The position numbers were made by a program, and so were the translations under genes. The notes below the pieces were generated by a model, which was not told the origin of the DNA, searched no databases, and worked only from the letters and a program-made list of their open reading frames with translations. DNA of 64,000 nt from Streptomyces griseoviridis (GTDB lineage: Bacteria; Actinomycetota; Actinomycetes; Streptomycetales; Streptomycetaceae): the NCBI RefSeq assembly GCF_005222485.1, contig NZ_CP029078.1:1240001-1304000 (forward strand). The letters run 5' to 3'. This document shows, piece after piece, positions 2,408-18,547 of this stretch (positions within the stretch are counted from its first letter, which is position 1; each line of letters opens with the position of its first letter).

Positions 2408-3460
2408 TCAGGTCCGCTGGAGCGTCAAGGCCGTGCCTTGCCACTCCTCCAGTACCGCCATGCTGGCGAACATGGTCTGGAAGGACGTCCCGATGCGCCG
2501 GGCCGGCCTGCGCAGATGCCGGCTGGAGGCTCCGAACAAGTTGATCAGGGTCAGGATCTCCTGGAAGGCGGCGCTGTCGAACTGGAGGCCCGAGCACGTC
2601 GTGACCACGTCGTCGAGAACCCCCTCGAAGCCGTCGGGCCACTCCTCGCGAGGCACGGCCGCCGCCCATTCCAGAACAGCCCCGAACCCCACGGAGGCGG
2701 CCTTCATCCGGTCCGCGAAGCGGTTGGCCGCTGCTTCCAGGTCACCCGCAGGACCGTCGATCGCCCTGGCGAGGCGGTTGACCACCGCGAGCGTCATCTT
2801 CATGGAGGCCCCGGGGTGGCTGACGCGCGCCATGTCCTCGGCGATGAGCTCCATCATCGCCCCCAGGTCCGTCAGCGCGGACTCCACATCGGCCATGTCC
2901 CCCTCGATGGCCTCCAGTTGCGCTTCGGCCTCGACCATCAGGTCGAACAGACCGGGGGCGTTCTCGTCCTGCCCGGACGTCGGGACCTGGGGTGTCCGCG
3001 CCGCCTCTTCGATGGGCTCGGAGACGACGTTCTCCCTGCCCAGGGCCTCCGCGAAGATGGCCGTGAGATGCCGCCGGGCCGCGACCGCTCCGTCGGCGTC
3101 GGTCGGGAGCGCGACGGCCCGGAGCCGGGCCGTCCCGGGTGGGGTGCCGGTTCCCTCAGTGACGTGGACGGTGCAGCGGCCCAGCGCGTGGCGTACGCCG
3201 AGACCGAAGGACAACCCCCCGTCAAAGCCGCTGGGTTCGACGACGACGATGTCCGCTCCGGTCACCAGGTCGAGCAGTTGGTCCGCGGTCAGGCCGGCGT
3301 CCTCGATGCCCTCCGTGCGCAGGAGGGTGAGGCCGAGTCGCTCGCAGGTGGGCCGTACGACGTCCTGGTGGAAGATCTCCGACCGGTGCCGGTCGGCCGG
3401 GGAGGGGCGTGGGGAGGAGCACGCGACGTGCGGCGCCCCGATGGCCAGGCAGGTGGGCAT
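2408..3460 (-). CDS. TIR/nucleoside-deoxyribosyltransferase-like sensor domain plus helical domain
   Basis: A 350-residue protein in two halves. Residues 1-150 match the TIR-like/nucleoside 2-deoxyribosyltransferase-like domain common in bacterial conflict proteins: FHQDVVRPTCERLGL, then TADQLLDLVTGADIVVVE, then LGVRHALG. In the usual family the last segment reads NpNvxYELGxRHAL with a catalytic Glu; here it is LSFGLGVRHAL, so that Glu is Gly. I therefore expect a non-catalytic binding or regulatory domain. Residues 150-350 are helical and acidic, with a possible coiled coil around EAQLEAIEGDMADVESAL. The ATG has AAGGA eight bases upstream. It is the last gene of a minus-strand operon with the motif-bearing P-loop protein. 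Its precise function is unknown. Confidence 0.6.
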   Translation of the reverse strand: MPTCLAIGAPHVACSSPRPSPADRHRSEIFHQDVVRPTCERLGLTLLRTEGIEDAGLTADQLLDLVTGADIVVVEPSGFDGGLSFGLGVRHALGRCTVHVTEGTGTPPGTARLRAVALPTDADGAVAARRHLTAIFAEALGRENVVSEPIEEAARTPQVPTSGQDENAPGLFDLMVEAEAQLEAIEGDMADVESALTDLGAMMELIAEDMARVSHPGASMKMTLAVVNRLARAIDGPAGDLEAAANRFADRMKAASVGFGAVLEWAAAVPREEWPDGFEGVLDDVVTTCSGLQFDSAAFQEILTLINLFGASSRHLRRPARRIGTSFQTMFASMAVLEEWQGTALTLQRT

Positions 3461-3520
3461 GGCAGGTTCCTTCTGCTCGGTGTGCGGGTGTGTCGGGCGG
3501 CAGCGAGTGGCCCGCGGAGT

Positions 3521-3793
3521 TCAGTCGAAGAGGGTGAGCGCGACCCCGTCAGCGATCTCGTCGGCGAAGACGGGGCGTTCCTCGATTCCCAGCGCGCGCA
3601 GCAGATCCACGGTGAGCACCCGGTGGCGTCGGCCGACCCGGACCGTGTCGCAGGGGAACGTGTCGAGGGCGACGAGCCGATAGGCGGTGCCCCGGCACAT
3701 GCCGAACGCCCTGGCCGCCGTGGTCAGGCCGACGCTGACCGGGAGGTTGAAGATCTCGCGGAAGGTGAGAGCCGTCTCGGCGGGTCCGGTCAT
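3521..3793 (-). CDS. Excisionase/HTH_17-like DNA-binding protein
   Basis: A 90-residue protein with one winged-helix domain of the excisionase/MerR-like type. LTTAARAFGMCRGTAYRLV is the helix-turn-helix, followed by a wing of the form VRVGRRHRV. The last 30 residues are acidic. Its ATG overlaps the stop codon of the preceding gene as ATGA, so the two are translationally coupled. In streptomycetes such small proteins are often paired with a larger partner as here. No integrase lies nearby, so I read it as a transcriptional regulator and not a recombination directionality factor. The DNA target is unknown. Confidence 0.65.
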   Translation of the reverse strand: MTGPAETALTFREIFNLPVSVGLTTAARAFGMCRGTAYRLVALDTFPCDTVRVGRRHRVLTVDLLRALGIEERPVFADEIADGVALTLFD

Positions 3794-4512
3794 CCGTTCC
3801 TCCGCACGTGCCGCAGGGAGAGCGCGGCGACCTGGCGCCCCCGCCCCGAGTACCGGGTGCCGGGGGCGGCGAGACCCCAGGTCTGGGCGAGCGCTCCGAT
3901 CCGCACTCCTTCGACCCGGTGGGCGGGGACGGTGAACCGCAGACCGGCCGCCAGTCCCGACCGGTTCGCGGGCGGGTCGTACTGCGCCTGCCAGCTTCCC
4001 CGCGCGTCCGTGTCCATGGGAGAGCCGCCGCTGCCCTCCACGTCGTCCGTCACCCTCTCGTGGCGGACCGTGCGCCACCGTGTCCACGCGCGCGAGCAGG
4101 CGGAACGCAGCACCTGCCCGCCGGGGTCGGAGGTGTCGGGTCCGATGTCCGCGAGGGCTTCGAGGTAGCAGGTGACGAGTTCGGCTTCGACGTCGTCCCG
4201 TTCCACGCGCAGCGACCTGACGATCCTGGCGGCGGTCCTGCGCAGTCCTGGCAGCCCCAGCCATACGACGGCCGTGGGCCAGTCGGACCGGTTCGGGTCG
4301 AGGCGTCGGCGCTCCGCGATCTGGTGCCACAGGTCGGTACGGGCGGCGGGGTCGAAGGACCGGTCGTAGAGCAACTGGCGGGCCTGTCGCAGGGCGACGG
4401 GTGCGGGCCGCCCGCCGAGGGTGTCGGGCAGGCGCAGTTCGGGCGTGGGGTTCAGGTCGGCGCACCGGCGCTCGACGGAGGTGAAGATCCCGGGATGAGG
4501 AGGAAGGGACAT
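3790..4512 (-). CDS. Conserved-style hypothetical protein coupled to HTH gene
   Basis: A 240-residue basic protein without a recognised enzyme motif. The middle (about residues 85-160) is helical, with DDVEAELVTCYLEALADIG followed by RSACSRAWTRWRTVRHE. The end (VEGVRIGALAQTWGLAAPGT) could form a helix-turn-helix. This is reminiscent of sigma-factor-like or DNA-binding accessory proteins but is not conclusive. The start is the ATG at 4512, preceded by AGGAGAG; longer readings upstream run into the neighbouring gene. It sits 14 bases after the P-loop gene and is coupled by ATGA to the excisionase-like gene, so the two products probably act together. Confidence 0.55.
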   Translation of the reverse strand: MSLPPHPGIFTSVERRCADLNPTPELRLPDTLGGRPAPVALRQARQLLYDRSFDPAARTDLWHQIAERRRLDPNRSDWPTAVVWLGLPGLRRTAARIVRSLRVERDDVEAELVTCYLEALADIGPDTSDPGGQVLRSACSRAWTRWRTVRHERVTDDVEGSGGSPMDTDARGSWQAQYDPPANRSGLAAGLRFTVPAHRVEGVRIGALAQTWGLAAPGTRYSGRGRQVAALSLRHVRRNG

Positions 4513-4526
4513 GGGTTCTCTCCTGG

Positions 4527-6548
4527 TCAGTCCGTGGGCGGGGCGGGCGGCTTGGTGCGCAGCGCGGCGAGCAGGCGCGGCGCCGCGACCTTCACGGGCA
4601 GGGCGTCCGGGGTCCTTTCGACGGCCAGGAGCCATCGGAGGAAACCAGGCTGTCGGGCAGCCGTCAGGCCCTTGAGGAGTTCCTCCAGAGCCGGACCGAG
4701 GGACGGTGTGCGCTCCGCCGCGCGGGACCAGGCGAAGAGGACGTCCCGCATCGGCGGGTAGGCGGCCGATTCGTTCAGGGCGTGTCCGGTCAGCCGGACC
4801 AGGGACGAGGCGGTGGCGTCGTCGGAGCCGATGCGGCCGCTCCACCAGGCGAGGTCCGTCCCGGCCATGGCGGGAAAAGCGAGGGCGGCGAGCATGCCCG
4901 GCAGGCCGTCGGCCGCGGCCCATTCCTCCAGCCTGGTCAGGAGGGCTTGCCTGGCCTCGGAGTCGCCGACGGCGAAGTGCCGCACCAGCGCGTCCGCGAC
5001 GGGTCCGGCGGCCTCCGCGTCGTCGCTGCCCCTCTCAACGAGCCGGTGTGTCAGTCGCAGGACCTGGTGGGTCGTCAGCCGGCCGAAGTCGGGGCGGCAG
5101 GCGTACGCGACCGTTCTCCGCAGGGCCGCCTCGCCCGCGACGCTCCACCGGTCGAGGAGGTCCGCGGCCTCGGCGGCGGCCGTCGGCCCTCCGACCGTCG
5201 TTCCCAGACACCGGGCGGCGACTTCGACAGCCACGGGCCCGTCGGACAACGCCAGCGGACGCAGCAGTTCCAGGGACCGGCCGGCGGTCGCCACAGCGAG
5301 AGCGGCGACCGCCTGCCCGGCCCGTTCGACCTGGTCAGGGGCGTCTCCCGGGTCGGCAAGCCAGAGGTGCAGCACGGGGAGCAGATCGGCGTGGTCCCGG
5401 CACAGGATCTCCCACACCGCGTCGGCCACGACCGGCCAGCAGAACGACACGGCTCCGGTGACGACCGGCCCTGTCTCCTGGGTGAAGTGCGCTCCGAGGG
5501 CGCGCAGCATTCCGTACCGGGACGGGCCGGGGTGCTGCCTGGCGAGGTCCTGACGCGGGTGACGGGCAGAGGGTTCCTGGTCCCGGCCGGGGTCCAGGTG
5601 CTCCAGCAGGTGGGCTGCCCGCTCCAGCACGACGTCGCCGTCGAGCCCGCCGTAGGCGCTGAGGGAGATCAGGTGGGCGAGGACCACCCGGTCCTCCCGC
5701 GCCTGGGCCACCAGTTCCGTGGCCTCCACCCGTGCCAGGGCACGCAGGACCCCGGTGGCGCAGGCGCCGTCCTCGGTCGTCGGCCGGGCCACGAACTGCG
5801 CGGCCCGCGCCGCGTGGCGGGGTGGCAGCCCGGTGTGCAGCACCTCGTCGAGCAGGCCCGCGCCCATGGCCCGCAGTGCCCTGACGCGGTCGGCGGCGTC
5901 GGGGCAGAGGTCCGCGAGATGGGCGTCGAAGACCTTCCTCGGGTCGGGTGGCAGATGGGTGAGGACCGGCGCGCCCAGGTGGTTGCGGAGGGCGGTGACC
6001 ATGCCGGGAGCGTCCGCCAGCACCATGAGGAGGCGCGCGCCCGCCTCGGTCAGGGCCGCTTCGAGGCGGGACAGGTCCCACGGGCGGAGCGCGAACGGAT
6101 CAGCGGGTTCCATCACCAGGTAGCCGTGCACCCCGTGGCGTCCCGGTACCCATCGGGCGAGGTCCACGGCACCGTCCACCTGGACGAGCACAGGGGCGTC
6201 GTGGCCGTGGGCCAGCAGGTTGAGGGCATGGGTCTCGCGGCCGGTCCCGGGTGCTCCGACGAGGGCCGAGACACCGGAGTCGAGTGCGGCGAGCGCGTCG
6301 CCGAAGCCGGGCGGCGGCACGAAGCGCCGCCTGGCCGCGAGCAGGTCCTTGGGGCGTACCGGGCCCTGTCCCGTGGGCCGGGCCGCGGGGCCGGCCGTCG
6401 CCGACGTGGAGACGATCTGCCGCTGGTCGCCTGTCACCAGGCCGGTGTTGACGGTGCCGTTCGGTGCGACGACGACCATCCTCCGCTCGGCGGCCAGGGC
6501 CGCGACAAGGGCGTCGAGGTCGGCGGCCCCGAGCACCTCAGGCGTCAC
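4527..6548 (-). CDS. P-loop (STAND-like) protein with N-terminal amyloid-like motif, copy 2
   Basis: A 673-residue protein. Residues 28-42 carry APNGTVNTGLVTGDQ, a variant of the short motif shared by four proteins of this locus. A P-loop follows at about 95: VGAPGTGRETHALNLL, with Arg where Walker A normally has Lys and one extra residue before Thr. A Walker-B-like strand is GARLLMVLADA. The C-terminal 400 residues are helical repeats without a named fold. It is a paralogue of the protein at 7879-9978, with the same order of motif, P-loop and helical region and similar length. It starts at GTG 6548, overlapping the stop of the small motif gene by 11 bases. I infer a signalling hub of STAND type; its ATPase activity is doubtful. 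Confidence 0.65.
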   Translation of the reverse strand: MTPEVLGAADLDALVAALAAERRMVVVAPNGTVNTGLVTGDQRQIVSTSATAGPAARPTGQGPVRPKDLLAARRRFVPPPGFGDALAALDSGVSALVGAPGTGRETHALNLLAHGHDAPVLVQVDGAVDLARWVPGRHGVHGYLVMEPADPFALRPWDLSRLEAALTEAGARLLMVLADAPGMVTALRNHLGAPVLTHLPPDPRKVFDAHLADLCPDAADRVRALRAMGAGLLDEVLHTGLPPRHAARAAQFVARPTTEDGACATGVLRALARVEATELVAQAREDRVVLAHLISLSAYGGLDGDVVLERAAHLLEHLDPGRDQEPSARHPRQDLARQHPGPSRYGMLRALGAHFTQETGPVVTGAVSFCWPVVADAVWEILCRDHADLLPVLHLWLADPGDAPDQVERAGQAVAALAVATAGRSLELLRPLALSDGPVAVEVAARCLGTTVGGPTAAAEAADLLDRWSVAGEAALRRTVAYACRPDFGRLTTHQVLRLTHRLVERGSDDAEAAGPVADALVRHFAVGDSEARQALLTRLEEWAAADGLPGMLAALAFPAMAGTDLAWWSGRIGSDDATASSLVRLTGHALNESAAYPPMRDVLFAWSRAAERTPSLGPALEELLKGLTAARQPGFLRWLLAVERTPDALPVKVAAPRLLAALRTKPPAPPTD

Positions 6549-6771
6549 CGTCGGCTCCCTGGTCGAGGTGGCCCGTCAGCTCGATGGCCGTGACGTGCTG
6601 GCCGCCGTGGACCGTGCCGGTGTTGATGATTCCCCGTTCGGCGTTCAGCACCATGGCGGGAGGAATTCCCGGCTCGTCAGCGGGGGCGGGCATTCCTCCC
6701 AAGTCGCTGTCGCGTCGCGTGGCGTACAGCGGAATCACCTTCTCCGCGAAATGATTTTCCTCTGGTCGCAT
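6538..6771 (-). CDS. Small protein consisting mainly of the shared amyloid-like motif
   Basis: A 77-residue protein. The first 40 residues are hydrophilic and Pro-rich. Residues 43-58 read NAERGIINTGTVHGGQ, the same core as in the cyclase-like and P-loop proteins. The remaining 19 residues are acidic. There is no other domain, signal peptide or membrane segment. The start is ATG 6771 with GGAAGG seven bases before it; a longer frame upstream lacks a ribosome site. Because it holds almost nothing but the motif, it could seed, cap or bridge assemblies of the other motif proteins. It is the first gene of the second operon of the locus and overlaps the next gene by 11 bases. Real expression is likely from this overlap; its function is inference. 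Confidence 0.6.
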   Translation of the reverse strand: MRPEENHFAEKVIPLYATRRDSDLGGMPAPADEPGIPPAMVLNAERGIINTGTVHGGQHVTAIELTGHLDQGADGDA

Positions 6772-6887
6772 GTCGTCCTTCCGCAGCCGTAGTTGACGTC
6801 CGAGGCGTGCTCGCGTGCCGTTTTTCCGGACGCCTCGAGATTCGCGCACGGAAGTCGCCGCGTCCGCTCTCTCGATGCGTACGGAAA

Positions 6888-6901
6888 GTGGCTGTGGTCA
6901 C
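6888..6901. promoter_or_regulatory. Crp-type box upstream of second operon
   Basis: The sequence gtggctgtggtcac fits GTG-N6-G-N-CAC, the motif described for Streptomyces Crp, on both strands. It lies about 117 bases upstream of the ATG at 6771, in the only intergenic gap of the locus. A second box of the same form precedes the first operon (11045-11060). A Crp-type regulator is encoded at 11067-11723. Binding is an inference. Confidence 0.5.
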
Positions 6902-6933
6902 ATGTGCGGACCGCCCGGGACAGCGCACGCGGA

Positions 6934-6975
6934 AAAGGGCGGGTGCGTCGTCCGAAGACGACGCACCCGCCCTTT
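6934..6975 (-). terminator. Rho-independent terminator after SPFH-like gene
   Basis: A near-perfect hairpin: a 19-bp stem (6934-6952 with 6957-6975) closed by a cgaa tetraloop, followed on the minus strand by TTTTCC. It begins about 23 bases after the stop at 6998. It splits the locus into two transcription units, 11->10->9 (10916-6998) and a second one starting near 6771. Confidence 0.8.
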
Positions 6976-6997
6976 CGACCGCTGCTTTCCCTCCTTC

Positions 6998-7882
6998 TCA
7001 CCCGGCCATGTCTGGTACCTGACGCCCCAACGCGGAGATACGGTCGCGCAGAAGGTAGGAGATCTCTTTCCGTTCCTGATCGGTCAACGTGCCCAGCAGC
7101 GTGGCCAGTTCTTCCTGCCAGTCGGTGCGCGGCGGGCTGAGCAGCTCACGGTGGTCGACCGCCCAGTCCAGCACCTGGCTCACCTGGTCGGGATGTCTGA
7201 GCAGCCAGAGCGCCGCCAGCGAGGCGGGCCCGGCGTGCAGCGCCTGGAGGCAGAACTCGAACTCGCCACGCCGGCTGGGCGTCCAGGAGTAGCGGACCCC
7301 CTCACTCTCCGCCCGGCCGAGGAGGAGTTCCTCGTCCGACTCCCTCAGCCGCACGTCGAACACCCGGTAGCTCAGGCCCGTCTCCTCGAGTCGCTGAGGT
7401 GCACCGAGGTGGTGCATGATCTCCGGGGCTCCGAGTCCGTTGCCCGTGACCGCCTGGGCCTCGGCGAGGTCGCGCAGCGCACTCGCGAGGTGGGTGCGGA
7501 CCAGGTGCCAGCCGTGCACGGCTCTCGCACGGACGACACTCACCGGATCGTGCACCCACCACGACACCCACAGATCCACGGATTCGGTGCCGTACACCGT
7601 GGGGAGGCCGATGGCCTTGGTGTCCACGTGCTCGGTCGCGTCCACCCGGAAGACGTCGGTGTAGTCGCCTCGGACACCGGGTGCGGGCGCCTCGCTGAAC
7701 ACCGGCACCTGGGCATCCGGGTCGTCGGGATCTCCACGGTGGCCGAGGACGAAGTAGTCGCCGGCGGTGTCCCGCAGCACCAGGGACCAGTCCTGTGCCG
7801 CCGACCAGCGCCGGCCGAGGATCTCCCGCCAGGGCGGCCTCGCCGTCCGGTGGTAGAGACGTTCGGTCGGTCCGTCGCTCAT
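6998..7882 (-). CDS. SPFH/band-7-like protein of accessory locus
   Basis: A 294-residue soluble protein. Residues 40-190 have the spacing of an SPFH/band-7 domain: a strand with YFVLG, then VDLWVSWWVHDPVSVVRARAV, then VRTHLASALRDLAEA. The segment VxWxVxDPxxVV is typical of that domain. Unlike stomatins or flotillins it has no N-terminal membrane hairpin. The C-terminal third is helical (LLRHPDQVSQVLDWAVDHR). Its ATG overlaps the stop of the upstream P-loop gene as ATGA, so the two are coupled. In the context it might scaffold or sense membranes for the motif-bearing proteins. The SPFH call rests on pattern only and needs a profile search. Confidence 0.4.
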   Translation of the reverse strand: MSDGPTERLYHRTARPPWREILGRRWSAAQDWSLVLRDTAGDYFVLGHRGDPDDPDAQVPVFSEAPAPGVRGDYTDVFRVDATEHVDTKAIGLPTVYGTESVDLWVSWWVHDPVSVVRARAVHGWHLVRTHLASALRDLAEAQAVTGNGLGAPEIMHHLGAPQRLEETGLSYRVFDVRLRESDEELLLGRAESEGVRYSWTPSRRGEFEFCLQALHAGPASLAALWLLRHPDQVSQVLDWAVDHRELLSPPRTDWQEELATLLGTLTDQERKEISYLLRDRISALGRQVPDMAG

Positions 7883-9978
7883 GCCGCCTCCTCCTGTCTG
7901 CCGCTCCGCCACCGGTCGAGCGAGGCCCGTGCGATGTCACGGCCGACCCGGCCGTCGGCTTCCTTCTGGTCCATCTCCACGAAAAGCCGGAACTCGCCGG
8001 ACCGCATGGATTCAGCGAGGTCGGCGAAGAGGTTCTCGACCGCTCGGCGCGACGTGGGGTCCCATTGCGCTCCGTCGGCCCATCCCAGCAACGCCCCGCA
8101 GGTGGCGTCGAAGGAACTGTCGTTGTTCAACGCCTGCCGGATCAGATCGGTGATCAGTTCGCCCTCGGGGGTGTCGTCGGCGAGCTGCCGGGTGAACCAT
8201 CGCGGAGAGCGCAGCAGTTGGGCGAAGAGGAAGAGTATGCCTTCCGTGTCGGCCTGGTCCGCGCTCAGCCATTCGCGAATCCGGCCGAACACGTTCTCCT
8301 CGTTGCCGGCCTGGAACAGGGTGGTGACCGCGGCCTGTACGGCGACGCGCACCTGGCTCTCTCCGCTGTCCTGCCCGTCGCGGGTGCGCAGTCCGAAGAC
8401 GAGGGTGCGCAGCAGGTGCAGGGCCACATCGGGGCGTGCCAGTCCGAACTCGGTGCCGCACGCGAGTCCCACCGTGGTCCGCAGGTCCGGACTCGCCGCG
8501 TGGCTCCACTGGCGGAGGCGGTAGCGCACCTCCGCGACCAGCACGGGGTCCTGGGCGGCGATGCCCAGGGCGTGGGCCGCGATGACGCGCCCGGTCGTGC
8601 GCTCGGACCCGGCGAGGGGCTGGATGTGGCGGAGCGCCCTGCGTCCGCCTCCCCAGCTCGCGGCCATTCCCATGACCCGGCCGACCGGTCCGGTCAGCCC
8701 GTCGTCCCAGCTCACCTCGCGCAGCCATCTGACGACCAGGTCCGCCAGCCGGCCGTACTCACGCCAGACGTGCCTGAGTACGGTCTCGGCCTGTCGGTGC
8801 CGGACGAAGACCACCGGTTCCACGCTGTGTCCGAAGGTGCCCGCCGTGCGGATCTGGCGCGGCTGCCGGGAGGCCTGGACGGCATGGAGGAGTTCTGTCA
8901 GGGAGCGCCGGAAGACGAAGTCGGGGTTGGGCCTTTCGGCGGTCTCCACGCCCTGGGAGTCCGTCGCCGGCAGTGTCGCCGCCAGGCATCCGTCGGAGAG
9001 GTCGAGCAACCGGTCGGCCTCCTCCCTGACGATGCGGTAGTCCGCCCCCTCGTACACGCAGGCCGCCAGCAGGAAGGAGAGGGCGTCGGGATCGTCGCGC
9101 AACTTCTCCATGAGGGGCGGTACTTCGCGCTCGGCGCGGTAGCTCAGCCGGTCTCGGAGATCGCCCAGCGCCGTCGCGTCACCGTCGGCCGCGACCAACG
9201 CCCCCACCAGCTCGACGACTTCGGCCGGCAGCAGCTCCGGTACCAGCAGCTCCCCCAGCTCCCGGCGGCCCAACGCCCCCAGCAGCCGGTCCCGTTCCCG
9301 TTGGTCGGGTACCGCGGCTTCGAACTGCGAGCCGAACACGGCCTCGGGCGGCGGCGGTTCGCACCGCACGACCGTGACATGGAGATCCTGTTCGAGCCGG
9401 CGCAGCAGCGCCGTGTCGTCCGGCAGGACGATCACCATGCGGGCGCCGACCCCGCTCAGCAGGGACCGCACATGGCCGAGGACACCGGCTCCGAGCGGCC
9501 GGGACGGGAACAGTCCGGCCACCACGTAGCCGCGTGCCGAAGCGTCGGTGGGCTGCCAGCTGTCCAGTTCGGTGAGGCTGTCCAGGGCGCGCAGCGGGGC
9601 CCCGCTCCCGCACTCCGCCCGCAGGAGGTTGAGGGCCGCGGTGTGCCGGCCGGAGCCGCTCCTCCCGGCGAGGAAGAGCAGCCCCCGATCCAGTTCCGCG
9701 CGGGCCGCGGTGAACCACGCGGGCTCCGCGAACCCGAAGGCGGCGGCCGTTACCTCCTCCTGAGGGATCGGCCCCTCGCGCACTCTGGACGGCCGAGATG
9801 CCCGCGGTTCGTCCGTCCGCTGGTTGTGGACGCCTTGACCGCCGTGTACGGATCCCGCGTTGACGTTCCCGTTCGGGGCGTAGACGAACGACCGCCACGG
9901 GCCGGTCCGTCCGGCGATGGCGTCGAGCAGCTCGGAGACCCCGCTCTCCGGTTCCCCCGGCGCCTCGTCGCCCGGCAT
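7879..9978 (-). CDS. P-loop (STAND-like) protein with N-terminal amyloid-like motif, copy 1
   Basis: A 699-residue protein. APNGNVNAGSVHGGQ lies at about residues 34-48. The P-loop is AGRSGSGRHTAALNLL near residue 110, with Arg in the Lys position, exactly as in its paralogue at 4527-6548. The strand GARMVIVLPDD stands at the Walker-B position. About 450 residues of helical repeats follow. The start is taken as ATG 9978, which shares its A with the TGA of the cyclase-like gene; a GTG three bases earlier is equally possible. Lying between the cyclase-like gene and the SPFH-like gene with overlaps on both sides, it should be made in fixed ratio with them. I infer a receptor or scaffold recruited through the motif. 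Confidence 0.65.
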   Translation of the reverse strand: MPGDEAPGEPESGVSELLDAIAGRTGPWRSFVYAPNGNVNAGSVHGGQGVHNQRTDEPRASRPSRVREGPIPQEEVTAAAFGFAEPAWFTAARAELDRGLLFLAGRSGSGRHTAALNLLRAECGSGAPLRALDSLTELDSWQPTDASARGYVVAGLFPSRPLGAGVLGHVRSLLSGVGARMVIVLPDDTALLRRLEQDLHVTVVRCEPPPPEAVFGSQFEAAVPDQRERDRLLGALGRRELGELLVPELLPAEVVELVGALVAADGDATALGDLRDRLSYRAEREVPPLMEKLRDDPDALSFLLAACVYEGADYRIVREEADRLLDLSDGCLAATLPATDSQGVETAERPNPDFVFRRSLTELLHAVQASRQPRQIRTAGTFGHSVEPVVFVRHRQAETVLRHVWREYGRLADLVVRWLREVSWDDGLTGPVGRVMGMAASWGGGRRALRHIQPLAGSERTTGRVIAAHALGIAAQDPVLVAEVRYRLRQWSHAASPDLRTTVGLACGTEFGLARPDVALHLLRTLVFGLRTRDGQDSGESQVRVAVQAAVTTLFQAGNEENVFGRIREWLSADQADTEGILFLFAQLLRSPRWFTRQLADDTPEGELITDLIRQALNNDSSFDATCGALLGWADGAQWDPTSRRAVENLFADLAESMRSGEFRLFVEMDQKEADGRVGRDIARASLDRWRSGRQEEAA

Positions 9979-10916
9979 CACGGTCGTCCTTGGTTCTTGT
10001 TCCCGCGCACCTGGTCCCCCTGGAAGCCGCGGACCCGGCCGGCCTTGTTCCCTCCGACAGCGTCACCGGCGACATGGTGATTGGCCACGCTCTGCCCGCC
10101 GTGCACCGTCCCCGTGTTGAGGTTGCCGTTGGGGGCGCTGTTGCGCACCCGGGTGCCGCGGTCACCGCCGCTCTGCTCACCGCCGCCCTCCGACCGACGG
10201 GAACTCGCCTTCACCTGCTCCTCGACCGTGCCGTCGGACGAGGTCTCCTCGTACAGCGGCCCGGACGGCTGCGGCACGTAGATCCAGGCCCGCTGGGAGA
10301 AGGGCTTGCCCTCGACGGTGGCGGCCACCTCCACGAAGTGGTCGAGGTGGCGCCCGGTGTATCCGCCGGCGACGGCGTCCTCGTAGCAGCGGTCGGAGAG
10401 GATCGCCGCGACGTGGGTGATGTTCTCCTTGTGCGAGGCGAGCACCGCCTTGACGGGCCGGGAGTCGAGCAGCCGGTGTGTGTCGTTGCGTGCCGTGCCG
10501 TTTCCGCTGAACTCGTCGCCGGTGTCCGGCAGCGGACCGATGTGCAGACTGACGCGCAGCCTGATGGGCACCACGCCGTGGGAGAGGACGTTGTAGTCCG
10601 TCAGCAGGTCCTGCAGATCGATCAGGAGGGGGTGGATCACGAAGGGCATCAGGGCGGGATCGAAGCCGAGGACGTAGCCGTCACCGGTGGAGGCGGGGAA
10701 CTTGCGATCGTTCCAGAGTTCCTGAAGTCCCGCCCTGGCGAGGGCTGTTTCCAGCAGCTCGGGCACGCTGCGGCTGATGGCCTCGTGCTGGACGGCCGGA
10801 TGGCCGGTGAACCCCTTCGCGTCCACGGCCAGGATGCCCCGGTACGGGGGAAGCGGACGGCTGTGGGTGTGCGGGGCCGCGCCCCACCGGGGCAGTCGGC
10901 TGCTCTGCTCGGGCAT
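9978..10916 (-). CDS. Class III nucleotide cyclase-like protein with C-terminal amyloid-like motif
   Basis: A 312-residue protein. Residues 24-160 read as a class III cyclase homology domain. D32 in VDAKGF and D79 in STGDGY are the two expected metal-binding Asp. RLRVSLHIG precedes a loop ending ARNDTHRLLD, in which N144 and R148 have the Asn-xxx-Arg spacing of the transition-state pair. All key residues thus seem present, although the purine-choosing Lys position is not obvious, so the base used (A, G, C or U) is open. Residues 261-275 carry APNGNLNTGTVHGGQ. A basic tail follows with two GDxVxGNK-like repeats. The ATG has GGAGGAG upstream. It heads the first operon and lies next to a Crp gene. 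Related domains act in Pycsar defence; that link is only suggestive. Confidence 0.65.
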   Translation of the reverse strand: MPEQSSRLPRWGAAPHTHSRPLPPYRGILAVDAKGFTGHPAVQHEAISRSVPELLETALARAGLQELWNDRKFPASTGDGYVLGFDPALMPFVIHPLLIDLQDLLTDYNVLSHGVVPIRLRVSLHIGPLPDTGDEFSGNGTARNDTHRLLDSRPVKAVLASHKENITHVAAILSDRCYEDAVAGGYTGRHLDHFVEVAATVEGKPFSQRAWIYVPQPSGPLYEETSSDGTVEEQVKASSRRSEGGGEQSGGDRGTRVRNSAPNGNLNTGTVHGGQSVANHHVAGDAVGGNKAGRVRGFQGDQVRGNKNQGRP

Positions 10917-11044
10917 GCGTCACTCCTCCTCGCGCTCCGTCCGCTCCGCGACGGTCGGGACGGAGACGCCGTTGTGTGGGTGGTCGTGCCGTTCGAGCTT
11001 CACAGCCGGCACCGGATCGGTCCGCCCCGCGAGTGCGCACGGAA

Positions 11045-11060
11045 TGTGACGTGGACCACA
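11045..11060. promoter_or_regulatory. Crp-type box upstream of cyclase-like operon
   Basis: The sequence tgtgacgtggaccaca matches 9 of the 10 fixed bases of TGTGA-N6-TCACA and contains GTG-N8-CAC. It lies in the 150-base gap between the stop of the Crp gene (11067) and the cyclase-like gene, about 130 bases before that ATG. It would let the Crp-type protein control the operon making its possible ligand. Confidence 0.55.
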
Positions 11061-11066
11061 GGGTGT

Positions 11067-11723
11067 TCACGCGCTGAGAGAGCCGGCGAGCATCTTCCTC
11101 AGGTCGTCGAGACCGGTGACGTGGACGCGGTTCTTCGTGGCCTCCACCCGTTCCGGGCCGAGGCGGAGCAGCGCCTTGGTGACGGAGTTGCGGCCCACCC
11201 CGACGTGCTGCGCCAGCTCCTCCCTGGTGAGCGAGAACGAGCACACACCACCGGAGACCTCGACGAGGCGCAGCAGCGCCATCGCCAGACGCTCATGCAC
11301 GGCACCGTCGTAGACCTCGGTCTGCTCCCGCAATCGACTCGATGCCAGCACGGCCAGCGGGTAGGCAAGCTGATGGTCGTCCACAAAGCGTCTGAAGTCC
11401 TCAGCAGGCACCACGGACGCTTTGCATGTGCTCATTGTCCGCACGTCGGCCAGACGCTCCCCGCCGTGCTGGAGTGCCATCTCGCCCAGAATCTCACCCG
11501 GCCCGCGGAAGGCGAGCAGCCGCTGCCGCCCATCGCGGTCCGTGCGGACCACCTTCACCATTCCACTGGTCAGGGCAAGCACATGAGTCCCACGCGTGCC
11601 CTGCCGTAACAGGGTTCGATCTGCTGGATAGCTCCAGGACGGGTAGCGGGTGAGACCCCTCCACGCCTCGCCCGTCACCAGATCCCTCAGCGTCCGCACG
11701 GAGAAGTAACTCTCTTCACTCAT
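11067..11723 (-). CDS. Crp/Fnr-family transcriptional regulator
   Basis: A 218-residue regulator with an N-terminal cyclic-nucleotide-binding beta-barrel (about 20-125), a dimerisation helix (about 128-155) and a winged helix with FSLTREELAQHVGVGRNSVTKALLRL at 163-188. The phosphate-binding cassette is intact: GEILGEMAL with E81 and R90 eight to nine residues later, the pair that holds the ribose and phosphate. This argues for real cyclic-nucleotide binding. It lies directly upstream of the cyclase-like gene on the same strand, and a Crp box lies between them. No strong Shine-Dalgarno precedes the ATG, so the mRNA may be leaderless. Its role as local regulator is an inference. Confidence 0.8.
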   Translation of the reverse strand: MSEESYFSVRTLRDLVTGEAWRGLTRYPSWSYPADRTLLRQGTRGTHVLALTSGMVKVVRTDRDGRQRLLAFRGPGEILGEMALQHGGERLADVRTMSTCKASVVPAEDFRRFVDDHQLAYPLAVLASSRLREQTEVYDGAVHERLAMALLRLVEVSGGVCSFSLTREELAQHVGVGRNSVTKALLRLGPERVEATKNRVHVTGLDDLRKMLAGSLSA

Positions 11724-11931
11724 GCGATCACGCTAAGGGAGCGAGCGCGCCGGTGAGGGCGAAATTCCGGACTCCGCCCTCCCGCCCCGGAGGCATGCTC
11801 ACGCCCGGTCGGGCAACGAGGGAGGGAGGCCATTTCCCGCGGCAGGCAGACGCCCTTCCTTTGGCTATCCTGCGCGAGTACACAGTATGTGATCACTCTG
11901 TCGCTGTCCGCACCGATACCGGGAGCCGTGG

Positions 11932-13629
11932 ATGCAGGAACAGACCGTCGTTCACCGTGGCAGGACGCTCGCGTGGGAGGGGTTCTGCATGGGGCCAGGA
12001 CTGCTGTCGCGCGCGGAGTTGGAGGACGTGTCGCGGCGGTTGCTCGGCGTCGGGCTCGCCGGGGCCGAGGCGGCGGCCGATGTGGAGCTGCGGCCGTTCG
12101 GCGCGGAGCGCGGGCAGGTGCCGGCCATCGTCCTCGGCACCGCCTCCACGCTCAAGGGCTGCTTCGAGGCCGACGTCGCCCAACTGGCCCTGGGGCGTTC
12201 GCCCGACGACTTCTCCGCCTACATGGAGGCCAGGTCGGTGTATCTGGCCGCGCCGGGCGACCTGGCGGTGGGGCGGGGCGAGCCGTGGCGGCAGGCGGTG
12301 GCCGCGTCAGGGAAGGTCGTCGGCGTCGAGGTGGCCGACACCAGCTACTACTACCTGTCGCACGCCCTGCTCGCGCTGGCCGTCGCCGCGCCCACCGAGC
12401 GGCTCGCCACGCCCCTCGACGTCCTCGTACGGCAGTTGCGCGCCGCGCCCGAGACCGTCGTGCGGCTGTTCGCCGCCGACACCGAGACCCGGGTGCTGCT
12501 GCTCTGGCTGAAGCGCGCGGCGGGTCTCACCGAGCTGCGCGTCGACGCCAACGGGCCCGAGATCGCCGCCCGTTGGAACCGCAAGACGACGCTGTACCCG
12601 ACCGTCGAGGAGGCGTTTGAGGTCCCCGGCCCCCGCGCCGCCGACGACGACCCGCGCCTCCTGCTGGACGCCGAGGCCGAAGTGACGCCCTTCCACCGGG
12701 AGTTCGGGGTGCTGCTGCCCCGCCTGCCGGGGTACTCGCTGACCCGGCGCGGCTCCGACGAGGCGTCCATGCGCGACCAGGTGCGGTCCGCCGCCCGTCT
12801 GCTGCGCGAGCGGTACGGCCTCGAACTGGGCTGCTTCAAGCCCGCCGAGGAGCTGACCGGCAGCCGGATCAGGATGGGGGTGCCCCTCGACGACGTCGCG
12901 GCGCTTGACGCGTTGGCGCGGCAGGCGATGGAGACCGAGGAGGACTACGTCCTGGAGGTGCACACCCACTACGGGCGGCACCGCGTCCCCGGCTACGAGT
13001 TCATCCTGGCGCCCTCCGCGCACGTGGTCGCGGGCCGGCCGGCCGAGGGCGGGACCGTGCAGATCACCCGGGGCAGCGTCTGGGAGGGCAGTGTCTACGT
13101 GGACGAGGACACCTGCGCGCGCTTCGACATCGCGCCCGCCGACTTCCGGGCCGTGCGGGAGGGGGTGGCCGCCCTGCACGGCGCGTTCCAGGGCGCCGGG
13201 CGCGACCTCGGGTTCGTCAAGGGCGGCGTGGACTTCGCGCTCGCCCGCCTCGGCGGCCGGTTCGGGGACCGTCAGGTGATCGCCATGCAGGACCTGAACC
13301 TGTCGTCCAACGGCGCCGAGTACGTCCGCGCGTTCCTCACCGAGGCGCGCGAGGTGCTCGGCCGCGAGCAGGGCGTGTACGCGGCGACCAAGGTGGTGCG
13401 GCCGGCGGCGGAGACCGATCTGAAGCGGCTCGAGGACGGGATCGGGCAGCCGGGTCCCGAGGGCCATGTGCGGGCTATCACGTCGGTCGCCGGGCGCTGG
13501 GGGCTGATCGGGGCGGCGGCTCCCTGCCCCCGCCAAGCCGCCCAGGAGGTACTGGAGTTGGAGCAGCGGCTGCACCGGGCGGGGCTGCTGCGGACCAGCC
13601 TGCGGGACGAGTCCGTACAGCCCGGCTGA
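11932..13629 (+). CDS. Conserved-style hypothetical protein, weak ATP-grasp likeness
   Basis: A 565-residue soluble protein without a signal peptide. The second half has a tentative ATP-grasp flavour: GSVWEGSVYV, then FVKGGVDFALARLGG, then QVIAMQDLNLSSNGAEYVRAF, where an acidic residue and Asn near the end would take the metal-binding place. The first 250 residues match nothing I know. The start is ATG 11932, with GGGAG eight bases before it. It is transcribed away from the Crp gene and is separated from the following operon by a G-rich convergent gap, so it is probably a single-gene unit. I do not recognise a function. Confidence 0.55.
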   Translation: MQEQTVVHRGRTLAWEGFCMGPGLLSRAELEDVSRRLLGVGLAGAEAAADVELRPFGAERGQVPAIVLGTASTLKGCFEADVAQLALGRSPDDFSAYMEARSVYLAAPGDLAVGRGEPWRQAVAASGKVVGVEVADTSYYYLSHALLALAVAAPTERLATPLDVLVRQLRAAPETVVRLFAADTETRVLLLWLKRAAGLTELRVDANGPEIAARWNRKTTLYPTVEEAFEVPGPRAADDDPRLLLDAEAEVTPFHREFGVLLPRLPGYSLTRRGSDEASMRDQVRSAARLLRERYGLELGCFKPAEELTGSRIRMGVPLDDVAALDALARQAMETEEDYVLEVHTHYGRHRVPGYEFILAPSAHVVAGRPAEGGTVQITRGSVWEGSVYVDEDTCARFDIAPADFRAVREGVAALHGAFQGAGRDLGFVKGGVDFALARLGGRFGDRQVIAMQDLNLSSNGAEYVRAFLTEAREVLGREQGVYAATKVVRPAAETDLKRLEDGIGQPGPEGHVRAITSVAGRWGLIGAAAPCPRQAAQEVLELEQRLHRAGLLRTSLRDESVQPG

Positions 13630-17165: not shown

Positions 17166-18547
17166 GGCCGGGTCGTCCGCTGGGGCGCGGCGCTCGCCTC
17201 GACGGCGTCGGCGAGGGCGCCGAAGGTGCTGTCGGTGAAGATGAGGTCGGGGGTGAGGGCGTCCTCGCCGAGTTCGTCCTCCAGGGTCGCCATCAGGCGT
17301 ACGGCGGTGAGGGAGTCGCCGCCGAGGTCGAAGAAGTCGGCGTCGGGCCGTACCGCGTCAGGGCCGAAGATCTCCGCCCAGATCCGGGCGAGCACGGCCG
17401 CCCGGGGCGAACCGGTGGTGTCCCGCCCGGCCTGCCGGGGCTTCGGACGGCTGTCGGTGAGGGCGGTGACGAGCGTGTAGCGGCGGGGTGGTGGCGTCGA
17501 CGGGAGCCGCCTTGCGGTCAGTTCGCGCAGTTCCTCCTCCAGGCGGCGCAGGGTCGGGCCGCCGCCGGGCAGGGTGACGGGGGCCGCGCCGGTGGCGGCG
17601 CCTGGGCGCCTGGCGTAGACGGTGTGGCAGGGGGTGCGGGTCAGCCGGGGGTCCTGGTCGGTGCGGGTCTCGTAGCCGTGGGCGCGGAGTCTGGCGAGGA
17701 CGGCGGCGAGCCGGCCGTCGATGTCGTGGACCTCCATGACGATCCGCTCGACGCGCGGCCACACCGTGTCGTCGATGCCGTCGAGGACGTCGGCCTCGGC
17801 CTTCTCCACGTCGATCTTCAGCAGGTCGACGCGGTCGAGGGCGTGCGCGTGGACGACGGCGGTGAGCGTGGTCACCGGGACCCGGCGGGTGTGCGCGGCC
17901 ATCCGGTCGGTCACCAGGCGGTCCAGGTGTCCCGCGGGTGGCGCGTCCGGGGCGGTCAGCAGGTAGCCGCGCAGTACGTCGAGGTCCTCGGCCGGGTCCG
18001 CGAACCGGCCGGACATGACGCTGTTGCCGGGGTAGAAGGTGAAGGCCGTCTCGCCCTCCTCGCGGCCGAGGGCGGTGCGCAGCACGGTGGCGTCCACGTC
18101 GTGCAGTTCGGCGTTGAGGGCGACGGCGTCGGCGAGTTCGGTGACGGGTTCGACGGCGATGACGCGGGCGCCCGGACTGTGCAGGGCGGCGCGCAGGGTG
18201 AACATGCCGATGTTGGCGCCGACGTCGACGACGACGGCCGCCTCGGGCAGCGCGATGCCGTACCTGAAGTAGGCGTTGTCGGTGAAGATCTCGCGGTGCA
18301 GGAACTCCGTCTCGCTGCGGTTGAGGCCCGCGACCCGCAGGGCGCCCGCGGGTTCGTGCCAGCCGAGGCCGCCGAGCCGGCCCGCCGCCTCCAGCCGGGC
18401 GGACCGGTGCAGCACCCGGGCCGTGCCGGGGTCGGCGACCAACTGGGCGTGGCCGCCCGCGCCTTCGGGGTCTGGGGTGACCGTGGCCGCGGCGACCGCG
18501 GGGTGTTCGGTGAGCACCTCGGCCAGGTGCGGGTCGATGTCGTTCAT
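17162..18547 (-). CDS. FkbM-type methyltransferase inside a remnant A domain, plus carrier domain
   Basis: A 461-residue fusion. Residues 1-35 (LAEVLTEHPAVAAATV) look like the start of the C-terminal subdomain of an adenylation domain. Residues about 85-300 are an FkbM methyltransferase with the AdoMet motif VVDVGANIGMFTLR and DLLKIDVEKAEADVL. Residues 320-375 resume the A-domain end (RRYTLVTALTDSRPKPRQ). Residues 385-455 are a carrier domain with FFDLGGDSLTAVRLM. The large A-core is missing, so it cannot activate an amino acid. It may methylate a substrate handed to its own carrier Ser. It is coupled by ATGA and GTGA overlaps to its neighbours. The substrate is unknown; a carrier-bound chlorinated residue is the natural guess. 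Confidence 0.7.
   Translation of the reverse strand: MNDIDPHLAEVLTEHPAVAAATVTPDPEGAGGHAQLVADPGTARVLHRSARLEAAGRLGGLGWHEPAGALRVAGLNRSETEFLHREIFTDNAYFRYGIALPEAAVVVDVGANIGMFTLRAALHSPGARVIAVEPVTELADAVALNAELHDVDATVLRTALGREEGETAFTFYPGNSVMSGRFADPAEDLDVLRGYLLTAPDAPPAGHLDRLVTDRMAAHTRRVPVTTLTAVVHAHALDRVDLLKIDVEKAEADVLDGIDDTVWPRVERIVMEVHDIDGRLAAVLARLRAHGYETRTDQDPRLTRTPCHTVYARRPGAATGAAPVTLPGGGPTLRRLEEELRELTARRLPSTPPPRRYTLVTALTDSRPKPRQAGRDTTGSPRAAVLARIWAEIFGPDAVRPDADFFDLGGDSLTAVRLMATLEDELGEDALTPDLIFTDSTFGALADAVEASAAPQRTTRP

Follow-up and report, generated by a model that had tools for sequence, protein, structure and literature searches.

A Streptomyces locus in which a short amyloid-like motif appears to join STAND/NLR-like proteins to a class III cyclase and a Crp regulator

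Here we describe a nine-gene block in a 64,000-nucleotide stretch (the window) of the Streptomyces griseoviridis chromosome (NZ_CP029078.1; 1.24-1.30 Mb of 8.96 Mb). The genes lie on the minus strand at window positions 2408-11723 in the order crp, cyc, receptor 1, SPFH, small, receptor 2, sig, hth and 'tir', which is the order claimed in an earlier interpretation made from the letters alone (the sequence-only reading). They are closely spaced. A gap of 150 bp separates crp from cyc, cyc overlaps receptor 1 by 4 bp, and receptor 1 overlaps SPFH by 4 bp with the ATG start of SPFH or by 34 bp with a GTG start; small and receptor 2 overlap by 11 bp, receptor 2 and sig are 14 bp apart, sig and hth overlap by 4 bp with the hth start running over the sig stop, and hth and 'tir' are 60 bp apart. 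An intrinsic terminator (6933..6976, minus strand; hairpin and U run, with z -6.9 for the folded 81-nt stretch) sits in the gap between SPFH and small, at the end of operon 1. Pfam, NCBIfam and PADLOC assign a name to Crp only, which is also the only protein with a Pfam match above the cut-off, and matches of the other eight proteins are absent or weak; assignment of all of them to an already named system, which the sequence-only reading had listed as grounds against itself, is not seen in these libraries. Nearly all listed database relatives of receptor 1, the SPFH protein and the 'tir' protein are hypothetical proteins.

Two of the proteins are well defined. Crp (218 residues; 11067..11723, minus strand) combines a cyclic-nucleotide-binding (cNMP-binding) domain, in which the GE...R cassette is intact, with a helix-turn-helix (HTH) domain, as is diagnostic of CRP/FNR regulators (Pfam cNMP_binding, E 4e-21; HTH_Crp_2, E 1e-9). 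The complete cassette noted earlier is borne out by the alignment of 78 rows, where E occupies position 81 in 73 (D in four, a gap in one) and R occupies position 90 in 77 (H in one). In PADLOC, Crp matches reach only the cNMP-binding part of Pycsar proteins. The cyclase (cyc; 312 residues; 9978..10916, minus strand) matches the profile of PDB 3mr7 (E 5.5e-9) and ends in a C-terminal tail with a motif. We compared it with the best 80 of 105 cyclase relatives, which represent 79 distinct named loci (each labelled L and a number; gene order by tblastn). The class III hallmarks that had been read from the sequence, i.e. two metal Asp and the transition-state Asn-xxx-Arg pair, are present and conserved: D32, D79 and R148 are found in 80 of 80 sequences and N144 in 69. 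In one genome of the genus (G241) the cyclase is split into pieces that lie on both strands and include a stop, apparently a broken copy.

The two P-loop proteins of the sequence-only reading are here called receptors. Receptor 1 (ploop1; 7879..9981, minus strand) comprises an N-terminal motif, a STAND-type NTPase with a degenerate P-loop and HEAT-like repeats (Foldseek, nSTAND3), and receptor 2 (ploop2; 4527..6548, minus strand) is a paralogue by sequence comparison (26% identity), likewise with an N-terminal motif. In Foldseek, the receptor 1 model is matched best by SAMD9, Avs5, NOD2 and NLRP3 (PDB 9jap, 5irm and 8swf among them), at E 3e-7 to 4e-4 and with whole-model TM-scores of just 0.17-0.31; the nSTAND3 profile matches seven of 27 receptor members (best E 0.0032). 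In the 50 VIA matches for receptor 1, HEAT proteins and AAA ATPases lead and no NLR is among the matches listed, which excludes nothing. Thus, on profile and predicted model, the receptors qualify as STAND/NLR-like with superstructure repeats, and STAND and HEAT-like similarity is also seen in the partners of cyclase tails. Because the P-loop proteins are STAND/NLR-like, the analogy to the amyloid motifs of STAND/NLR proteins drawn in the sequence-only reading is apt. Between the receptors lie the genes for a 294-residue protein (6998..7882 from the ATG, alternative GTG start at 7912, minus strand) and for the small protein of 77 residues (6538..6771, minus strand), which is present as reported, starts with the ATG at 6771 and has a motif near its C-terminus. 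The former has a predicted SPFH/stomatin fold, in agreement with the earlier call: the first 20 Foldseek rows of its AlphaFold2 model are all SPFH-family entries, yet a Pfam profile match is lacking. With the ATG start, its length agrees with that of most database relatives.

The evidence that connects these proteins is a short shared motif. Over six frames of the 64 kb, its regular expression matches four times, in the cyclase C-terminal tail (NGNLNTGTVHGGQ; 10092..10130), the receptor 1 N-terminus (NGNVNAGSVHGGQ; 9835..9873), the small protein (GIINTGTVHGGQ; 6598..6633) and the receptor 2 N-terminus (NGTVNTGLVTGDQ; 6423..6461), all on the minus strand, vs a mean of 0.03 and a maximum of one after residue shuffling (200 shuffles). 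One peptide in four proteins, as first noticed, is therefore real. In receptor 1 the motif lies in a head that is predicted to be disordered (residues 26-67, pLDDT, the model's per-residue confidence, <50). Judged from sequence and position, the motif appears to be an amyloid-like tag joining cyclase, receptors and small protein.

Beyond what had been noticed earlier, the cyclase tail is paired with the receptor head in several motif families. The motif sequence differs from lineage to lineage, and within a locus the cyclase tail still matches the head of the gene that comes next. Type A (NxNxGxVxGGQ) is found in 39 and type B (QxVxxGxAVMGxVxxD) in 21 of the 80 cyclase tails, with these expressions, which are our own, placing at least one B tail (L090) in the remainder; further pairs occur in L034 (GPxSFGGHAAGRDV), L106, L109, L107/L110, L036 and L026/L029/L030. 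In 56 of 60 cases, the tail-head alignment scores higher than every one of 20 shuffles. Among nine loci that we picked by hand to cover different motif types, eight have their own next gene as the best partner, a result equalled by none of 20,000 permutations (L118 fails). When all 94 distinct cyclase tails were compared with the 650 nt downstream of cyclases, the tail's own stretch beat every distantly related locus in 56, with 2.3 expected. A stricter type A expression has 95 sites at most 400 bp from block genes and on their strand, and two elsewhere in 1.55 Mb of loci. Four receptor-less cyclases stand directly before sig-hth-tir, and three of them (L100, L101 and L103) have no motif. The tails of L101 and L103 carry a short amphipathic-helix-like stretch instead. 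In L026, L029 and L030, which belong to another family of the order, an AVQHGDVHIH-like motif of the cyclase tail recurs at the C-terminus of a 151-residue protein in the next frame; we take this protein to be Bell-like by resemblance and a putative pore former.

The small genes carry ERGIINTGxVHGGQHV or near variants. In L073 and L077, where no small gene was found and cyc is followed immediately by receptor 2, the cyclase tail reads ERGIINTGSVHGGQHL. For each of these two tails, the 12 best matches shown from other loci are all small-gene frames. In sequence, the small protein resembles a detached cyclase tail.

The second link, also new relative to the sequence-only reading, is a CRP box before each operon. 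Box 1 (TGTGG-N6-TCACA; 11045..11060) lies in the crp-cyc gap upstream of operon 1 and agrees with TGTGA-N6-TCACA at nine of ten positions; box 2 (TGTGA-N6-CCACT; 6887..6902; eight of ten) lies upstream of operon 2 and downstream of the strong terminator. The whole window holds just four sites of this quality (at least eight of ten), and boxes 1 and 2 are two of them. By the same threshold, the crp-cyc gap has such a site in 61 of 75 loci (related loci included) vs 1.8% of 7063 background segments of the same length, and the gap before the small gene has a second one in 13 of 13 loci. In L101 and L103, where crp is divergent, a CRP-like site still precedes the cyclase. At crp itself, in the window (11721-11740) and 14 aligned loci, a TA-N2-GTGA-TCGCATG word that is mostly conserved lies no more than a few bases from the start, which suggests a leaderless crp transcript. 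A palindrome upstream of crp, CGGAAT-N-ATTCCG, was considered as an operator and dropped because it is found at crp in just three of 12 loci.

The block is conserved in order and patchy in occurrence. Related loci are mostly from Streptomyces and Kitasatospora, with others in Nocardiopsis, Actinoplanes, Saccharopolyspora and further genera. Among the 79 loci, crp adjoins cyc in 77, receptor 1 is immediately 3' of cyc in 58, and SPFH then follows in 54. The full nine-gene order is found in ten; in L051 only the small gene has no tblastn match, though a matching frame is present. The module cyc-receptor1-SPFH stands alone with crp in 41 loci, L050 is without module 1, L073 and L077 have cyc-receptor2-sig-hth-tir, and four loci have cyc-sig-hth-tir. 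These arrangements indicate that modules of the block recombine. Genomes with two close Crp-cyclase loci also occur (L022/L084, on the same contig, and L075), one locus with receptor 1 and SPFH and the other with sig-hth-tir. The flanks of 12 loci (the window, ten complete loci and L050, one of them too short downstream) are almost wholly unrelated, apart from L043, L045 and L049 upstream (a small part also in L046) and two pairs downstream, and the block therefore behaves as a unit. The gene-order comparison proposed with the sequence-only reading thus finds the genes together in many genomes, and the objection that they might not co-occur falls away. The cyclase family is present in 102 of 295 genomes of the genus, at E <1e-70 in 25 (its own included), and cyclase matches are present in 49 of 396 genomes of the phylum, at E <1e-20 in just nine. 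Together with the unrelated flanks, this patchiness gives the pattern of an accessory block that is probably moving horizontally.

Three possible origins were considered. Plasmid-borne transfer of the whole block was rejected, as a plasmid collection has no receptor 1 match and its cyclase relatives (11 records) are below 40% identity. A phage collection has no cyclase match, and phage origin was likewise rejected. A tRNA-linked island was rejected since the only tRNA of the window, tRNA-Arg at 18287-18373, is 6 kb away from the block; a scan of 18 loci (five of them just 3.9 kb long) gave one tRNA about 1.3 kb past the last gene and an ARAGORN call within a coding region.

Based on gene order, motif pairing and boxes, which were obtained directly, and on the cyclase, STAND and SPFH folds, obtained by profile or model, we suggest a two-operon circuit leading from receptor to transcription, a reading that we consider probable. 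In this circuit, receptor 1 (or receptor 2 in operon 2) would sense a trigger via its repeat domain and expose its N-terminal amyloid-like motif, which would template its counterpart in the C-terminal tail of the cyclase. The active sites of class III cyclases form between two subunits, and clustering of the tails would, for this reason, be expected to turn the cyclase on. The cyclic nucleotide would then bind the neighboring Crp, which would act at the two CRP boxes, with box 1 serving cyc-receptor1-SPFH and box 2 serving small-receptor2-sig-hth-'tir'. In other words, Crp would amplify the sensor operon and deploy the second operon. The small protein could serve as a free motif adaptor that couples receptor 2 to the same relay, and a role as effector or scaffold is likely for the SPFH and 'tir' proteins. 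We infer the amyloid templating, the activation of the cyclase, the nucleotide, the sign of the control by Crp, what the remaining proteins do and what the circuit is for. Anti-invader defence of a filamentous organism is plausible as its most likely purpose, given the patchy and mobile block, the STAND architecture and the diversified motifs. More tentatively, and with somewhat less than even confidence, we propose that amyloid templating activates a class III cyclase, such that a prion-like event would give rise to a diffusible messenger and, via Crp at the two boxes, to self-amplifying transcription; several distinct motif families would then be insulated channels in different actinobacterial lineages, and the small protein a plug-in adaptor for a second receptor.

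Several observations weigh against this circuit. The Walker A lysine is absent from 82 of 82 aligned receptors (R in 74, A in seven, T in one), so ATP-driven switching is doubtful, and the earlier description as P-loop proteins is corrected in this point. The missing lysine suggests either that receptor assembly rather than ATP cycling would be the trigger, or that ATP would stay bound and not be turned over. In L034, however, the distant partner has SGKHT. In the cyclase, the base-specifying residues of the window copy are non-canonical (A75, S137) and do not show the Lys/Asp pair of purine-type enzymes; of 80 rows, 48 have A at position 75, where K is not among the six commonest residues, and 54 have D at position 137. 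In the 650-nt comparison, 38 of 94 tails, including that of L106, do not match their own locus best, and a blast of tails over all open reading frames puts the own locus first in just four of 98, partly because many loci share motif types. Motif types A and B divide the cyclase tree by one change; most pairings are therefore inherited, and counts such as 56 of 94 are not independent events. L108, in which cyc is followed by sig-hth-tir and no receptor was found, has a B-like tail. Finally, both boxes suit a housekeeping Crp equally.

The same receptor-cyclase-Crp circuit could also serve development or the sensing of stress, e.g. nutrient or envelope stress, instead of defence, which we regard as possible if on the unlikely side. 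SPFH proteins organise membranes, which would fit such a role, as would the actions of cyclic AMP and Crp in Streptomyces development and antibiotic control that the accessible parts of the literature describe, and PADLOC fits are limited to models that share the cNMP-binding domain with Crp. The occurrence of close cyclase orthologues in only 25 of the 295 genomes, mostly between unrelated flanks, argues against it, as does the fact that STAND receptors whose motifs diversify typically belong to conflict systems.

The motif, in turn, might be an ordinary docking peptide or a beta-solenoid repeat by which receptor and cyclase bind without amyloid templating, an explanation we likewise hold doubtful. 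It gains from the additional GDxVxGxK-like repeats in many type A tails and from motif A being without VQ-G, the core of the RHIM. It loses from the motif being short, homotypic on both partners and placed inside a predicted disordered head, and from its position at the N-terminus of the receptor and the C-terminus of the partner, which is the layout of bacterial amyloid signalosomes as far as described in the accessible text of PMC7889193.

For the transcriptional step of the suggested circuit, the rival reader of the boxes is the housekeeping Streptomyces Crp, because each of the two boxes conforms to the consensus of S. coelicolor Crp, given as GTG(N)6GNCAC in the accessible part of PMC10033298. 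The locus Crp would then work elsewhere, and the locus would merely be carbon- or development-regulated. We consider this rather unlikely, since the box adjoins crp in most loci, recurs upstream of operon 2 and is retained in the two loci with divergent crp.

A cyclase next to a cNMP-binding protein is also the arrangement of Pycsar, and in a divergent Pycsar system the cyclase would yield cyclic CMP or cyclic UMP and the bound effector would kill the cell. The non-canonical base residues of a class III cyclase would suit this, and one of 14 aligned cyclases matches the PycC model (E 0.007). By contrast, the window cyclase has no match among the PADLOC models, and the only recognised cNMP-binding protein is a CRP/FNR transcription factor with an HTH rather than a TIR or membrane effector; a motif-tagged receptor is present in addition. 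A divergent Pycsar is therefore very unlikely, and plain Pycsar was rejected for want of a PycC match of the window cyclase and of a cNMP-gated TIR or membrane effector in the block. That unrelated neighbors share the motif by chance is next to impossible and is refuted by the conserved order, as well as by motif pairing, unrelated flanks and shuffle counts.

Bacterial amyloid (BASS) NLR signalosomes were reportedly described by Dyrka et al. in 2020, and the circuit suggested here is similar to them in overall design. In both, an NLR-type receptor has an N-terminal motif, an adjacent gene has the same motif at its C-terminus, and several motif families exist in filamentous actinobacteria (PMC7889193, PMC8086366, PMC12261475, in their accessible text). 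However, where those systems have a Bell, CHAT or TIR effector, the partner here is a class III cyclase accompanied by Crp and CRP boxes; the receptors are without the P-loop lysine, and there are two receptors, a free motif protein and a second operon; the word "cyclase" is absent from the main texts of the three papers. Because the effector differs, we do not claim membership of the BASS family. MoxR-vWA and STAND conflict systems, including VMAP/iSTAND, have cNMP cyclase, band-7, STAND, CRP-type HTH and deoxyribohydrolase-type domains in common with the block, and CRP genes are linked to peptide-processing systems (PMC7159879 and PMC8195603, accessible parts). In our block these domains are in separate proteins joined via a short motif, no vWA, MoxR or VMAP match was found by Pfam in the nine block proteins, and the accessible parts of the two papers contain no Crp-cyclase-STAND pair linked by a motif. 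Avs5 and animal NLR proteins, the best structural matches of receptor 1, differ in that the partner here is in trans, through the motif, and a SIR2 or death domain was not seen. Literature searches, subscription papers aside, gave no description of a Crp-cyclase-STAND locus, and a 2026 study of Streptomyces orphan protein synteny (PMC13118837) names no such cluster for cyclase and Crp in its accessible text. We file the locus, on present analysis, as putative NLR/amyloid-motif signalling with a cyclase-Crp output that was not described before in the literature searched.

If the tag acts as it appears to, the locus would represent a new bacterial route from danger sensing to gene activity. It would give a concrete measurable output, a cyclic nucleotide and transcription driven by Crp, in organisms amenable to culture and engineering, and its natural motif variants can be swapped. 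Testable roles are also gained for a gene set in which, for three of the proteins, nearly all listed relatives are annotated as hypothetical.

The remaining proteins of operon 2 are less clearly defined. The coupling of sig (240 residues; 3790..4512, minus strand) and hth (90 residues; 3521..3793, minus strand) stands through their overlap. As to the DNA-binding look ascribed to the pair, sig shows weak similarity to sigma-70 region 2 in one of 16 members (E 0.017), and the excisionase-like HTH_17 match of hth (E 0.0016, from the longer frame 3521-4465) is below the Pfam cut-off. The last protein (2408..3460, minus strand) had been called TIR-like. That identity, and with it a TIR effector, was rejected as no TIR model matched; instead, weak profile matches point to a nucleoside deoxyribosyltransferase/DNPH1-like N-terminus followed by a long helical part. 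Five of 17 family members, the window copy not among them, match the deoxyribosyltransferase profile at E up to 0.1 (best 0.028), the family matches PDB DNPH1 entries at E about 1e-3, and a catalytic-type Glu is found in six of 17 members and is Gly in the window copy. Beyond the crp end of the block, a plus-strand gene at 11932-13629 encodes a neighbor of 565 residues; absent from all others of the 41 genomes searched (its own included), it is itself accessory.

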